From a virus: DNA of 28,043 bases. Of this stretch, positions 3,295 to 28,043 are shown piece by piece. Positions within the stretch are counted from its first letter, which is position 1. Each line of letters begins with the position of its first letter. The stretch is taken from the IMG/VR virus record IMGVR_UViG_3300008267_000305, positions 1-28,043 of that record; one strand, written 5' to 3'. The notes under the pieces were generated by a model. The model worked only from the letters and a program-made list of their open reading frames with translations. It searched no databases and was not told the DNA's origin. The position numbers and the translations under genes are program-made.

Positions 3295-3554
3295 TTGTTA
3301 CCCCTCGCACGGATGGCCGATGGAAGGTCAGGGTTAAGAGCGCACAGCAATTTTGAAAACGCCGCGTGTGGTATTGGTTCTGGTTGATCCAACAAATACA
3401 TTGCCTCGCGCATCGCGTGTTTTAACCTCTCACATTCGTTTTGCTCGGCTGCGGCAACAAGGGCGGCGAAGCGTTCAAGTGGAAGCGGCCAAGCATCCAT
3501 AAGTTCACCAAATCCAGCCTCTTTCGCCAGTCGGATAATGTCGTCGCGGGTCAT
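3291..3554 (-). CDS. Hypothetical phage protein, common small helical type
   Basis: 87 residues. The opening MTRDDIIRLAKEAGF and the later RFAALVAAAEQNECERL are typical of a widespread small phage protein of unknown role that begins with a helix-turn pattern and continues as an Ala/Glu-rich helix. The ATG overlaps the stop of the membrane protein gene (ATGA at 3551-3554). No catalytic residues seen. Confidence 0.65.
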   Translation of the reverse strand: MTRDDIIRLAKEAGFGELMDAWPLPLERFAALVAAAEQNECERLKHAMREAMYLLDQPEPIPHAAFSKLLCALNPDLPSAIRARGNK

Positions 3555-3703
3555 TTCTCAACCCCTAACGATTTGCATAGGTCGTAATAGGCAAGCCCGA
3601 ACCATAAGAAAAGCGCCATGCCAACCATGTACGGCAAAATCCATATCGGCGAAGTAACGATTATTAAAACCGCTAATACCCGTTTCCAAAAGTTTTTAGT
3701 CAT
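3551..3703 (-). CDS. Small membrane protein, two predicted helices
   Basis: 50 residues. ATG at 3703 overlaps the stop of the replication initiator (ATGA), which favours this start over a longer in-frame opening that would lie inside the initiator gene. Two hydrophobic stretches are visible, VLAVLIIVTSPIWILPY and MVGMALFLWFGLAYY, after a short basic N-terminus (MTKNFWKR). It is a probable inner-membrane protein of unknown role, perhaps in host takeover. Confidence 0.6.
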   Translation of the reverse strand: MTKNFWKRVLAVLIIVTSPIWILPYMVGMALFLWFGLAYYDLCKSLGVEK

Positions 3704-4413
3704 TGCGCTAACCACTGCTGCACGGCCAATACGTTTGCGTCCTGCTGCGTCTCGGCTTTGGTCTTCGGTAACGACCATGGCAGTGCAAAAGACTTGTCTG
3801 GTCCTAGGAACGATGCCGCCTGTTTAACGTACTCGGTCCCAAGTTTGCCGGTCGCCTCGCAAAACGCTCTGTACCGCATCGCGCCTTCGATAAATTCGCC
3901 CGGCGTGTGTCCCTCGGCCATCCGTGCGTTGGCGGCTTTCAACGCCCGCTGCCAGCCCTGATCCCCTGCCCGCTCCGGGTATAGGTCGCGGAATTGAGCA
4001 AACCAATCCGGTATGGCTGGTTTGGCTTTTTTGGCTTTAGGGGGGGTAGGGGGGGTTATATCTGTTTCTGTATCTGTATCTGTATCTGTATCTGGAGTAG
4101 CAAGTTGCTTGCACGTTGCTAGCGTGTTGCTAGCATCGTCGAAAAACCCGTGTTCAATCAACGGTACTAGCGCCGAAATGAATTCCTTTTCCGTAAGTCG
4201 CACGCGGAACGCAATTCGGCTGGCTGGACCATGAATCTCGCCCCCTTCTTCCTCGGCTGCTAGCAACCATAAAAACGGTGCTAGCGCCTTGCTAGCAACA
4301 GGCAAGCAAGCAAATTCGTAGTCGTCGAGTAAGTCGCGGTGCAACTTAATCCATGGCGGACGACGACCCTTGTAATGCTGAAAACGACGCCAGTTCTTCG
4401 GTTTAATGACCAT
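3700..4413 (-). CDS. Probable phage replication initiator / replisome organizer (lambda O-like position)
   Basis: 237 residues from ATG 4413, preceded by GGAG at good spacing; a GTG two codons upstream is less likely. The N-terminal ~100 residues (WRRFQHYKGRRPPWIKLHR, LWLLAAEEEGG, RLTEKEF) form a predicted winged-helix region seen at the N-terminus of many phage replication proteins. A low-complexity Asp/Thr then Pro/Lys linker follows (about residues 107-133). A C-terminal helical domain contains DWFAQFRDLYPERAGDQGW and YVKQAASFLG. The first gene after the Cro-like regulator is the classic place for an initiator. The middle of the gene holds iteron-like DNA repeats, as lambda O does. The linker is encoded by a hexanucleotide repeat and two G7 tracts. 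The exact family is uncertain. Confidence 0.6.
   Translation of the reverse strand: MVIKPKNWRRFQHYKGRRPPWIKLHRDLLDDYEFACLPVASKALAPFLWLLAAEEEGGEIHGPASRIAFRVRLTEKEFISALVPLIEHGFFDDASNTLATCKQLATPDTDTDTDTETDITPPTPPKAKKAKPAIPDWFAQFRDLYPERAGDQGWQRALKAANARMAEGHTPGEFIEGAMRYRAFCEATGKLGTEYVKQAASFLGPDKSFALPWSLPKTKAETQQDANVLAVQQWLAQ
4040..4095. repeat. Microsatellite: two G7 tracts and ~6 copies of TCTGTA
   Basis: On the plus strand, G7 at 4040-4046 and again at 4049-4055 are separated by TA. Hexamer units TCTGTT, TCTGTA x4 and a partial copy then run from 4061 to 4095. The tract lies inside the replication initiator gene and codes for its Thr/Pro and Asp/Thr linker. The hexamer is a multiple of three, so copy-number change would alter linker length without a frameshift. 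Slippage in the G tracts would shift frame. Confidence 0.85.
4104..4299. repeat. Iteron-like GCTAGC repeats, candidate replication origin
   Basis: Three 11-base direct repeats are contiguous: GTTGCTTGCAC (4104-4114), GTTGCTAGCGT (4115-4125) and GTTGCTAGCAT (4126-4136). A second group has GCTGCTAGCAAC (4256-4267), GGTGCTAGCGC (4277-4287) and CTTGCTAGCAAC (4288-4299), with the last two GCTAGC cores again 11 bases apart. The core is a palindrome. The 11-base period is not a multiple of three, so the repeats are not explained by a repeated peptide. Lambda carries its origin iterons inside gene O, the equivalent place. Origin function is an inference. Confidence 0.5.
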
Positions 4414-4424
4414 AAACACTCCAA

Positions 4425-4462
4425 ATCGCTAAAGCGATACCCCAAAACGACCGCGAAAGCGG
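4425..4462 (-). promoter_or_regulatory. Leader hairpins between the Cro-like and initiator genes
   Basis: In the 85-base gap there is a perfect inverted repeat ATCGCT-AA-AGCGAT (4425-4438), directly beside the GGAG ribosome binding site of the initiator. A second hairpin CCGC-GAAA-GCGG (4451-4462) is followed on the minus strand by TCGTTTT. The second could act as a weak terminator or attenuator after the Cro-like gene. The first could mask the ribosome binding site or be a protein-binding operator. The structures are seen; the roles are inferred. Confidence 0.35.
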
Positions 4463-4498
4463 AAAGACTGCCGAACCGGGCTAGCAGGAGTAACCAGC

Positions 4499-4690
4499 CT
4501 AGCGCGGGGTAGCGCCAACGGACGGCCCGACAGTCCTTCCTAGAATCTCGCGGAATTCATATACCCGGCGTGCGGGTAATCGGTTCGTGCGGACCCAATA
4601 GGCTACGGCAAAACGCGTTACCCCGAACGCCCTTGCTGCTGCTGCTTGTGATCCGCCGAAGTGGTCGATTACGTCTTTCACGCTAGGCAT
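4499..4690 (-). CDS. Cro / YdaS-like HTH transcription regulator
   Basis: 63 residues from ATG 4690 (a second ATG at 4714 would add eight residues; neither has a strong ribosome binding site). The sequence VIDHFGGSQAAAARAFGVTR followed by FAVAYWVRTNRLPARRVYEF is a textbook Cro/YdaS helix-turn-helix: a G-S-Q-A-A-A-A-R-A-F-G-V-T helix pair, then a recognition helix with A-V-x-x-W. It is the first gene of the minus-strand early operon and faces the plus-strand operon across a short control region, as lambda cro does. It probably binds operators in 4691-4790 and damps early transcription. Confidence 0.75.
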   Translation of the reverse strand: MPSVKDVIDHFGGSQAAAARAFGVTRFAVAYWVRTNRLPARRVYEFREILGRTVGPSVGATPR

Positions 4691-4754
4691 GGCGCAAATA
4701 GTAACCGGTCGCATCCGGCCAATGTGACCGCAGAATGGTCAATGTTTAAATATG

Positions 4755-4784
4755 TTGAGTTTCCTACACGCATGGGTATATGAT
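4755..4784 (+). promoter_or_regulatory. Sigma70-type promoter for the plus-strand early operon
   Basis: TTGAGT at 4755-4760 and TATGAT at 4779-4784 are separated by 18 bases, giving a good -35/-10 pair about 40-50 bases before the first plausible start (4833). Just upstream, TTTAAA-centred AT-rich sequence (4741-4754, AATGTTTAAATATG) is a near-palindrome that could be an operator. No equally good promoter was found for the opposing minus-strand operon. A TTGACC on the minus strand at 4742-4737 lacks a matching -10. Confidence 0.5.
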
Positions 4785-4832
4785 TCTCACATGGGCGGCG
4801 CGGTGCTGCTCGTAACTAGGGAAGCAAGACAA

Positions 4833-25766: not shown

Positions 25767-26408
25767 TTACAGGGTCAGGAACGCCGTAGTCGGCGGGGTG
25801 AAGTTGCTGGTGTAACGGGCGATGCCTTTGGTGATACGAAGGTCGTCGATGTATGCGTCTATTGCTTGGTCGCCAGCGGCAGTTCCAGCGCCGACTGTTG
25901 TTGCGCCAGAAGTACCAACAGCCTCAGATGCCGTTGCAGAGGTTCCAGCAATTCCGTCTTTATAAATTCTGACGGTATTCCCATACCTCACGATAGCCAA
26001 ATGCTGCCAAGTGTTGAGTGAAACATCCAAGCCAGAATCGGTGCCTAAAATTTGCCAATTCGTGGCTGCAGCGTTGGAAACAAACATTAAATAATTTCCG
26101 GCAGAATCCATGACTATGCATGGGCCACCGTATCCAGACGTACTCGCCCGCTGCGCCCACAAGGTTTCATATTGCCCCGCACCCGGTAGGCTGTTTGGTC
26201 TAAACCAGCACTCCCAAGTAAAGTCGCCAGTCCCCATTTGCAGGTCTGCGGTTGTGCGCGTTACAAGATAATCCCCCGTCCCATCGAAATACATCGACGA
26301 CCCGCCGAACTTGCTCTGCGTCGTGCTGATCTGCGCGTTGCCCACCGTCTCAAGGTCGTTCTTGGACGTAGCGTCGTAGATGCATCTGCGCGTTGCCCAC
26401 CGTCTCAA
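25767..26408 (-). CDS. LamG-domain structural protein, third fragment (C-terminal, frameshifted)
   Basis: 213 residues in this frame, ending in the usual TTAFLTL-type finish. It holds one complete LamG/concanavalin-like jelly-roll domain: YFDGTGDYLVTRTT, GDFTWECWFRP, NTWQHLAIVRYG then YKDGIAG and YIDDLRITKGIARYTSNFTP. The first few residues (MRRWATRRC) are read-through of a 55-bp duplication; the real continuation begins with IYDATSKNDLE, in common with the fragment upstream. Together with the two fragments upstream it would be one long multi-LamG virion or fibre protein. Confidence 0.7.
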   Translation of the reverse strand: MRRWATRRCIYDATSKNDLETVGNAQISTTQSKFGGSSMYFDGTGDYLVTRTTADLQMGTGDFTWECWFRPNSLPGAGQYETLWAQRASTSGYGGPCIVMDSAGNYLMFVSNAAATNWQILGTDSGLDVSLNTWQHLAIVRYGNTVRIYKDGIAGTSATASEAVGTSGATTVGAGTAAGDQAIDAYIDDLRITKGIARYTSNFTPPTTAFLTL

Positions 26409-26438
26409 GGTCGTTCTTGGACGTAGCGTCGTAGATGC
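26329..26438. repeat. Exact 55-bp tandem duplication in the LamG gene
   Basis: Bases 26329-26383 and 26384-26438 are identical. The unit starts ATCTGCGCGTTGCCC and ends GTCGTAGATGC. As 55 is not a multiple of three, the second copy shifts the reading frame, which separates LamG fragments two and three. Removing one copy restores GIYDATSKNDLETVGNAQ followed by ISTTQ in one frame. Confidence 0.95.
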
Positions 26439-27054
26439 CTGCGTTGGTGAAGTTGCAGAGCAGTTGCGTGTTGGTAATTGCGGTTAACGGAGCCGTAGGC
26501 GGCGTAAAGGCTGCGGTGTATACGGCGGTTCCCTTAACAAAACGCACCCCATTCAAATAGCCAACAATCGGGAACGAACCAATGCTGCCGCCGCTTGGGG
26601 CAATAGCAGTTGCGCCAATTCCTAAATCCGATGCGTTATTGAAATTGGTACTATTTGTTGCGGAACCAACCGAAGCGCCGTTGAGATATAGAACCAGCGA
26701 TGTTCCGTTACGAACAAGCGCCATGTGGTTCCACGCATTTGCCCTGACTGCTGCGCTTGCGGTAATAACCGCGCTGCCGGAAGCGTAAACAACAATCTGC
26801 CCGTCGCCATTTCCCGTTTGCAGAAGCAAGCCACCAGACTGCGCGTAGCCTTTATCAATCGGATTTTGATATCCGGCAATGCTGGTCGGATACCACCAGT
26901 ATTCAATAGTGAAGTCTCCGCTGCCCATTTGCAGAGCCGCATTATTGGAAACCGTCAGGTAATCCCCGCTCCCATCAAAATACCCACTCCCGCCATACGT
27001 CGCTGCACTCCACGCTGCCGTGGGGTTGAACGGGCTGAAGGCTTGGACAGACAC
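26350..27054 (-). CDS. LamG-domain structural protein, second fragment (frameshifted at both ends)
   Basis: 234 residues in the displayed frame; the first codon is GTG inside the phrase GDVSVQAF, so it is not a natural start. It carries one LamG domain: SGYFDGSGDYLTVSNNAALQ, GDFTIEYWWYPTS, NAWNHMALVRNGTSLVLYLN and YLNGVRFVKGTAVYTAAFTP. It ends NTQLLCNFTNAGIYDATSKN then, through the duplication, MHLRRYVQERP and a stop. Its upstream side (TRNGD) lacks the start of a domain linker seen elsewhere in the protein. Confidence 0.65.
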   Translation of the reverse strand: MSVQAFSPFNPTAAWSAATYGGSGYFDGSGDYLTVSNNAALQMGSGDFTIEYWWYPTSIAGYQNPIDKGYAQSGGLLLQTGNGDGQIVVYASGSAVITASAAVRANAWNHMALVRNGTSLVLYLNGASVGSATNSTNFNNASDLGIGATAIAPSGGSIGSFPIVGYLNGVRFVKGTAVYTAAFTPPTAPLTAITNTQLLCNFTNAGIYDATSKNDLETVGNAQMHLRRYVQERP

Positions 27055-27055
27055 A

Positions 27056-28043
27056 TCACCGTTGCGCGTGGGTGTTGGTAATGGCGGTAAGCGGCGTCGT
27101 GCTAGGCGTAAAGTTGGCCGTGTATACGGCAGTTCCCTTCACAATGCGGAAATTAGAAATGTAACCGTTGAAGTTATATCCCGCAGTACGGTTTGCGGCA
27201 ATCCAACAAGCCTGCGTGGTGCCAAGGTCGCCCGATACCGTTGATGAATTTCTTTGAGTACCGTTTACGTAAGTTCTTAACGTGCCAGACGAACGAACAA
27301 ACGCAATCTGCGTCCAAGTGTTTAATGCGACAGTACCAACGGTAATTTCGGTGTTTGCGGGGCCGTTGTAAAACAACAAATTTAAAGACGAGTCAATTCT
27401 TGAATTGCAAGCAGTTGCGGTCGTCCCTGTTCGCAAATCAAATAGCGTACCCGGCCCGTTTGCTGGGTTTGCAGTCGGGTACACCCACATCTCAATCGTA
27501 AAGTCCCCCGTGCCCAAACCAAATGCGGTGCTTGATCCAGCATCTAAATAATCACCCGTCCCATCAAAATAGTTCCCCCACCCCGTCTGCGAGAACGGCG
27601 AGAACGTACCCTGCGTCGTGTTGCCGTTGCGGGTAATCGTGAAGTTGTTGGTAGACGAGTCTAGGAACGTATTGTTCTGCGCTCCGTTGGTGCCGTTACC
27701 GGGCAACAGCAGAGTGGTGTAGTCAAAGTACGGATCGGCAGTCAGCGTGACCGTACCGCCAATGTTCGGGAACTCTGCCGTTGGAGGCGTAAAGTTGTAG
27801 GGGTAGCGGCCTACGCCCTTGGAGATACGCCAATCGTCAACGTATCCGTTCCAAGGCCAAGTTCCTCCCGGCTGCTGTCCAATGTTTAGAACCTTGGACG
27901 TAGAACCGATGGAATTAGTGTTCGCAATCGTGGCAAACGCTGTGCCGTTGATGTATGCCTTGATAACACCAGCATTGCGCGACGCAGCAAAATGATACCA
28001 AGTGCCAGTTTTAATAAGGCCTGTTGCAAAAAAACTAGTATTT
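27056..28043 (-). CDS. LamG-domain structural protein, first fragment, N-terminus beyond right edge
   Basis: The frame is open from the window edge (no start seen) to a TGA at 27058-27056, at least 328 residues. It includes the end of one LamG domain (YHFAASRNAGVIKAYINGTA, YVDDWRISKGVGRYPYNFTP) and a second complete domain (LPGNGTNGAQNNTFLDSSTN, YFDGTGDYLDAG, GDFTIEMWVYP, YISNFRIVKGTAVYTANFTP). It stops at AITNTHAQR where the neighbouring repeat unit continues NTQLL. LamG/concanavalin folds bind carbohydrate or protein and in phages sit in fibres, decoration or tail proteins. Confidence 0.7.
   Translation of the reverse strand, partial: NTSFFATGLIKTGTWYHFAASRNAGVIKAYINGTAFATIANTNSIGSTSKVLNIGQQPGGTWPWNGYVDDWRISKGVGRYPYNFTPPTAEFPNIGGTVTLTADPYFDYTTLLLPGNGTNGAQNNTFLDSSTNNFTITRNGNTTQGTFSPFSQTGWGNYFDGTGDYLDAGSSTAFGLGTGDFTIEMWVYPTANPANGPGTLFDLRTGTTATACNSRIDSSLNLLFYNGPANTEITVGTVALNTWTQIAFVRSSGTLRTYVNGTQRNSSTVSGDLGTTQACWIAANRTAGYNFNGYISNFRIVKGTAVYTANFTPSTTPLTAITNTHAQR

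Follow-up and report, generated by a model that had tools for sequence, protein, structure and literature searches.

The window analysed here, meaning the whole stretch of 28,043 bases of a metagenomic fragment, carries a replication initiator gene on its minus strand, and within the coding sequence of that gene lie two helically phased arrays of a short palindrome. The features concerned are the following.

3700–4419, minus strand: replication initiator gene (239 aa), with a winged-helix N-terminal domain (about aa 1–100), a linker and a C-terminal DnaD-like helicase-loader domain
4259–4307, minus strand: array group 1, in the N-domain coding sequence, with GCTTGC at 4302–4307 and GCTAGC at 4291–4296, 4280–4285 and 4259–4264
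4096–4134, minus strand: array group 2, at the border of domain and linker and of exact 11-bp pitch, with GCTAGC at 4129–4134 and 4118–4123, GCAAGC at 4107–4112 and GCTACT at 4096–4101
4057–4095, minus strand: purine-rich (CAGATA)n tract, a candidate unwinding element, which encodes the linker DTDTDTDTETD
4480–4485, no strand assigned: lone GCTAGC in the leader, 61–66 bp upstream of the start codon, present only in the near-identical relatives L001–L003

The whole initiator matches phrog_26426 ("replication protein", E 1.7e-50) and its C-terminal half alone matches phrog_1701, a DnaD-like helicase loader (E 3e-20), so that in its C-terminal domain the protein agrees with the DnaD-like phage helicase-loader initiators of PHROG 26426 and 1701. 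No Pfam or NCBIfam family was matched by the whole initiator. The Pfam family of the lambda O N-terminus was matched neither by the whole protein nor by 40 members of its N-domain family (E 1), and PF06970 by none of these 40 (E up to 1); DnaD_N was matched by nine of them (best E 0.007). The AlphaFold2 model of the N-domain is a winged helix (pLDDT 84.5), the best structural matches of which include the N-domains of staphylococcal RepA_N initiators (4pql_B and 4pt7_B, Z 7.1; 5kbj_C, Z 6.8), values below 8 not being decisive. Overall the RepA_N matches (4pql, 4pt7, 5kbj and 4pta) span Z 6.5–7.1, which is only suggestive, since winged helices commonly reach values near 7, and the match to DnaD (2vn2) is lower (Z 4.9).

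When all 28,043 bases were scanned, GCTAGC was found to start at 4118, 4129, 4259, 4280, 4291 and 4480 and nowhere else, the last being a further copy that the original prediction had placed at 4480–4485. Six copies are unremarkable beside the roughly 4.1 expected from dinucleotide shuffling, and the signal therefore lies only in clustering, phase and synonymous choice. All six fall within 368 bp (4118–4485; chance about 2e-9 under random placement), five of them inside the initiator gene and one in its leader. The palindrome is not dense elsewhere: outside the gene its density in the window is 0.04 per kb, and the 36.9-kb contig of relative L001 holds one additional copy. TCGCGA, which becomes relevant below, is absent from the window.

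The original prediction of five GCTAGC copies and one GCTTGC variant (plus strand, 4107) was correct as far as it went, and each group holds at least four units once degenerate ones are counted. Two such units in 11-bp register, both on the minus strand, had been overlooked as units: GCTACT at 4096–4101, and GCTTGC at 4302–4307, inside GCAAGCAAGC. The two groups had also been given an exact 11-base period, and this holds for every step except one, since the plus-strand starts are spaced by 11 and 11 bp (4107, 4118, 4129) and by 11 bp (4280, 4291), with 21 bp between 4259 and 4280. On the coding strand, group 2 reads GCTAGCAACAC GCTAGCAACGT GCAAGCAACTT GCTACTCCAGA, four units of 11 bp each, and group 1 is GCTTGCCTGTT GCTAGCAAGGC GCTAGCACCGT, with GCTAGC 21 bp further on; the two thus form helically phased groups at 4096–4134 (four units, 11 bp) and 4259–4307 (11, 11 and 21 bp). 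Synonymous codon shuffling of the window gene gave 1.1 GCTAGC copies against the five present and 0.012 exact 11-bp pairs against two, and none of 1000 shuffles reached either five copies or two pairs. The lone GCTAGC in the leader is possibly an auxiliary site or a chance occurrence.

Relatives were sought in two ways. A motif-first scan of viral contigs for TGCTAGCNNNNTGCTAGC returned at least 120 stretches, and in a set of 134 sequences, composed of the motif loci listed, the window and loci obtained by other routes, 95 encode an N-domain homologue, typically at the motif. About 37 motif-first loci among the matches listed are without this domain, many of them resembling chance matches. In this motif-found and hence search-biased set, homologues of 40–60% identity carry the sites on the same codons (about 40.0, 43.2, 50.2, 94.0, 97.2 and 105.0). 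Because such a scan is biased towards the motif, all statistics below rest on protein-found sets. The window protein as a single query found no relative among bacterial-genome contigs; an alignment of the N-domain, blind to the DNA motif, found 80 viral and 39 bacterial-genome loci.

In both sets, synonymous conservation proved to be as the original prediction would have it. GCTAGC copies number 286 against 58 expected from synonymous shuffling in the 80 viral loci and 94 against 15 in the 39 genome loci, and for exact 11-bp pairs the viral loci give 69 where 1.03 are expected and the genome loci 25 where 0.155 are expected, with no shuffle in 1000 as high. The density per kb is 5.2 inside the gene and 0.084 outside it for the viral loci, and 3.4 and 0.107 for the genome loci. 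GCTAGC pairs at 10 or 11 bp occur in 31/51 and 18/36 non-redundant genes of the two protein-found sets, GATATC pairs of this kind occur in 5/36 genes, and among the 64 hexamer palindromes no further one is paired in this way in two or more genes of either set. The distance from an exact site to the next near-match peaks sharply at 11, 22 and 32–33 bp with almost nothing between. The distance between the groups is variable, mostly by multiples of three, so that each group is phased internally but the two are not phased relative to each other. The repeats are present in close and distant relatives with the same N-domain, with the consensus GCTTGCC.gTTGCTAGCAagGCGcTAGCaCC..TgcT.TGGtTGCTaGCA for group 1 (64 non-redundant relatives) and gatGcTAGCga..tGCTAGCAga.tGCtaGCAagaTGCTA for group 2 (75 relatives); some relatives (L222, L230, L239 and L251) have only degenerate units or none. 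Separately, 11-bp GCTAGC pairs were seen in initiator-like genes without the window's N-domain, at 851–912 of L054, 4405–4443 of L119 and 9242–9258 of L097, whose products are a MTFPIDFPDHPKV protein, a MARIRYIKPEFF protein and a DUF1376-like protein, respectively.

The palindrome changes when the N-domain does. Four complete cultivated or environmental phages found by protein (L009–L012, including Limnohabitans phage DC33 and Xanthomonas phage PBR31) are without GCTAGC and carry GATATC every 11 bp in the same place, as do five prophages in which GATATC likewise replaces GCTAGC. In a tree of the N-domain, built on few columns, the sequences with GATATC fall into a single clade (support 100/98) that is embedded among those with GCTAGC, and the sole member of that clade labelled as a GCTAGC user, L221, also has an 11-bp GATATC pair. 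A more drastic exchange is seen in L004 and L005, whose initiators have the C-terminal half in common with the window's (96–97% identity over the matched part, with near-identical DNA) and an N-terminal half of another, unrelated family (MARIRSIKPEF...). Their initiator genes contain no GCTAGC; six copies of TCGCGA occur in each contig (35.6 kb and 15.3 kb), every one of them within the swapped half, in two groups of 10-bp pitch. In a protein-found set of the swapped-in family, TCGCGA pairs at 10–11 bp are present in 69 of 74 genes, and they number 160 where 1.24 are expected. When the profiles of the two N-domain families were compared, no real sequence kinship emerged (hhalign probability 14%). 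The palindrome follows the encoded N-domain family across unrelated phages and prophages of many phyla, and the swap in L004 and L005 is the strongest evidence that it would belong to the DNA-binding domain. As a separate observation, NWxxFQHYKDRxPPW at the start of the window's N-domain (aa 1–30) resembles NWLKHQKIDxPS at the winged-helix end of the L004 N-domain (aa 85–105), and this likeness, together with the order of secondary structures, looks as if the domain had been circularly permuted.

The swapped-in family includes "RepA-like" initiators of cultivated phages, for which the following features can be listed.

L255 1198–2064, L336 701–1579 and L338 701–1573: RepA-like initiator genes of mycobacteriophages or gordoniaphages (Brujita, Raymond7, Denise), with TCGCGA in two groups at 10–11 bp

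In the Raymond7 gene (gp54), TCGCGA lies at 182, 193 and 204 and at 371, 382, 393 and 404, exactly 11 bp apart; Brujita (gp63) and Denise have similar arrays (p 0.002), that of Bantam is weaker (p 0.014), that of Babsiella is marginal (p 0.05), and Polly, Che8 and TChen have no significant exact palindrome array. We regard the arrays of Brujita, Raymond7 and Denise as candidate origins of these laboratory phages. For the RepA phages of their own study, Miko and Rachaly, Wetzel et al. found no repeats, stated the origin to be unidentified and suspected it to lie within repA (PMC7157519). Nine cultivated phages with O-like initiators (SfV, BcepIL02, PhiR5_2, JC1, HK639, F10, Bordetella IFTN3, Marinomonas P12026 and Austintatious) have no phased hexamer-palindrome array, which means either that the rule is not universal or that the units there are not 6-bp palindromes. 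The rule applies to certain N-domain families and does not extend to phages at large.

Adjoining group 2, positions 4057–4096 are the least stable 40-mer of 3400–4800 (-1.16 against a mean of -1.47 kcal/mol/bp, sd 0.11). Among relatives, the least stable 40-mer of the whole gene follows the last site at a distance of no more than 60 nt in 23/74 genes (7.0 expected) and 12/60 genes (4.8 expected). Synonymous shuffles keep much of the purine-rich, unstable tract, which is therefore partly due to the protein (Thr/Glu repeats), and purine bias alone was rejected as a signal at the DNA level since the protein explains most of it. The tract of several cultivated phages consists of tandemly repeated units of 7 or 8 bp (GGGAACA, GGGGAACA), a period that is not a multiple of three and thus points to selection on the DNA there. 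Such repeats directly follow the linker array in L255 (1609–1640), L257 (1578–1630), L336 and L340–L342, persist in Che8 and TChen despite their degenerate palindromes, and are possibly a single-strand or unwinding element. Just beyond the CAGATA tract of the window, at 4040–4060, there are also two runs of seven G on the plus strand (GGGGGGGTAGGGGGGG), which recur with small changes in L001–L003.

All of these observations suggest that the winged-helix N-domain of the initiator itself binds specifically to both arrays and that these together form an intragenic phage replication origin, a reading that we consider very probable. As the original prediction had proposed, the array would be the initiator's own site and the putative origin of the phage, and conserved codons, the dependence on synonymous choice, the tracking of the N-domain through the swap and the adjoining least stable stretch all argue for it. 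Each 6-bp palindrome would be bound by one initiator unit, and with one palindrome per turn of the helix the proteins could line up in phase along a single DNA face. The resulting nucleoprotein complex could strain and open the unstable purine-rich tract beside group 2, where the C-terminal DnaD-like domain would recruit the helicase loader and helicase. Since one stretch of DNA holds the site and also encodes its reader, N-domain and origin would be inherited and exchanged as one cassette. Sequence comparison establishes the arrays and their phasing, the constraint acting on the DNA, the co-inheritance with the N-domain and the adjoining unstable tract, and from these we infer binding, cooperative assembly, unwinding, helicase loading and origin activity. 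The cumulative GC skew has a minimum near 4 kb, but the turn at 4–5 kb coincides with a divergent switch in gene orientation and is therefore uninformative as evidence for an origin.

Many initiators repress their own synthesis, and the arrays could instead be initiator-binding sites that serve mainly for autoregulation, as a road-block or repressor within gene and leader, with the true origin elsewhere. That the sites overlap the gene and that one GCTAGC lies in the leader would fit, but this leader site is not common to distant relatives, the window has no second cluster of initiator sites, and most sites are deep in the coding sequence, in long phased arrays by an unstable tract as in lambda and RepA_N origins (PMC7466680, PMC5703833); we therefore hold this to be unlikely, although autoregulation may occur additionally through the same sites. 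Less likely still is that a different protein of phage or host (a repressor, partition protein, module-exchange recombinase or packaging protein) is bound at the sites and that their location in the gene is incidental. Some of the array sequence does stand at the border of the domains, at which modules recombine; however, group 1 is inside the N-domain coding sequence, away from that border, and across many phyla unrelated phages and prophages switch palindrome in exact step with the family of their N-domain. Finally, although the amino acids of the conserved VASKALAP stretch encoded by group 1 permit the sites, the notion that the arrays are a by-product of protein conservation (AS..LA motifs) or codon bias has practically no probability left and is already refuted by the synonymous-shuffle test, in which shuffles preserving protein and codon usage rarely recreate the sites (one fifth of the copies and 1–2% of the 11-bp pairs), the pitch moreover not being a multiple of three and the sites falling about equally in two reading frames, as the original prediction had argued against protein repetition.

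The reading of the arrays as an intragenic origin bound by the initiator has known counterparts. Lambda iterons are longer hyphenated palindromes at a pitch of roughly two turns. Origins inside the initiator gene are classical in lambdoid phages (PMC7466680), and the candidate binding repeats of the window, at 4096–4134 and 4259–4307 within 3700–4419, resemble the lambda origin in gene O in being tandem, putatively initiator-bound repeats placed between DNA-binding and helicase-loader parts (PMC7466680). As in lambda, where there are four units and the N-terminal half is co-inherited with ori (PMC7466680), an easily melted tract (4057–4096) stands beside the repeats. The analogy with lambda drawn in the original prediction is thus strongly supported by comparison, except that the unit here is a 6-bp palindrome at a one-turn pitch (10–11 bp; 11 bp in the window) in two groups, whereas the lambda iterons form one group, and that the present protein has no Pfam match to the lambda O family.

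RepA_N plasmids offer a second counterpart. In pSK41, ori is central within rep, and in plasmid pPR9 about 500 bp comprising the N-domain and the origin have been naturally swapped while the C-terminal part was retained (PMC5703833). The difference between L004 and the window resembles this swap. RepA_N initiators likewise combine a winged-helix N-domain, here predicted, with a DnaD-like C-terminal domain. Their iterons, inverted repeats of 8–9 bp, are described as semi-palindromic and as converging towards a poly-A tract (PMC7145576, PLE RepA), in contrast to the contiguous 6-bp palindromes without a poly-A centre found here; moreover, RepA_N systems belong to Firmicute plasmids, whereas the present one occurs in phages and prophages, mostly of Gram-negatives, and does not match PF06970. 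The RepA-like initiators of mycobacteriophages and gordoniaphages are homologous to the N-domain swapped into L004 and have intragenic TCGCGA arrays in Brujita, Raymond7 and Denise, but differ from the window in palindrome and N-domain sequence. By analogy, the system would appear to work like lambdoid and RepA_N origins while failing their sequence tests and differing in unit, pitch and two-group layout.

In a wider sense, it is rather probable that every winged-helix N-domain family goes with a particular 6-bp palindrome (GCTAGC, GATATC, TCGCGA and probably further ones), set one turn apart in two intragenic arrays, so that reader and origin form a single exchangeable cassette and a readable specificity code links domain sequence to palindrome. 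Such a rule would hold generally across a large and mostly uncharacterised portion of tailed phages, and the origins of hundreds of them could be located from sequence alone. In the open-access literature searched, subscription papers being outside its scope, we found neither a report of these arrays nor a rule by which domain and palindrome travel together, and the PhiPLPE genome paper describes other repeats only. For many phages and prophages without an assigned origin, including cultivated mycobacteriophages, a candidate origin is hereby located with a precision of tens of bases, and the comparison of GCTAGC, GATATC and TCGCGA provides a ready data set for target change in winged helices. 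An exchange of domain and origin together between near-identical phages, as the swap suggests, would give compatible replicons.

Far from this locus, at 25767–27706 on the minus strand of the window, three consecutive open reading frames in different frames each carry a similar LamG-like repeat and a foreign-looking tail, and they may represent a single long repeat gene interrupted by frameshifts or by errors of assembly.
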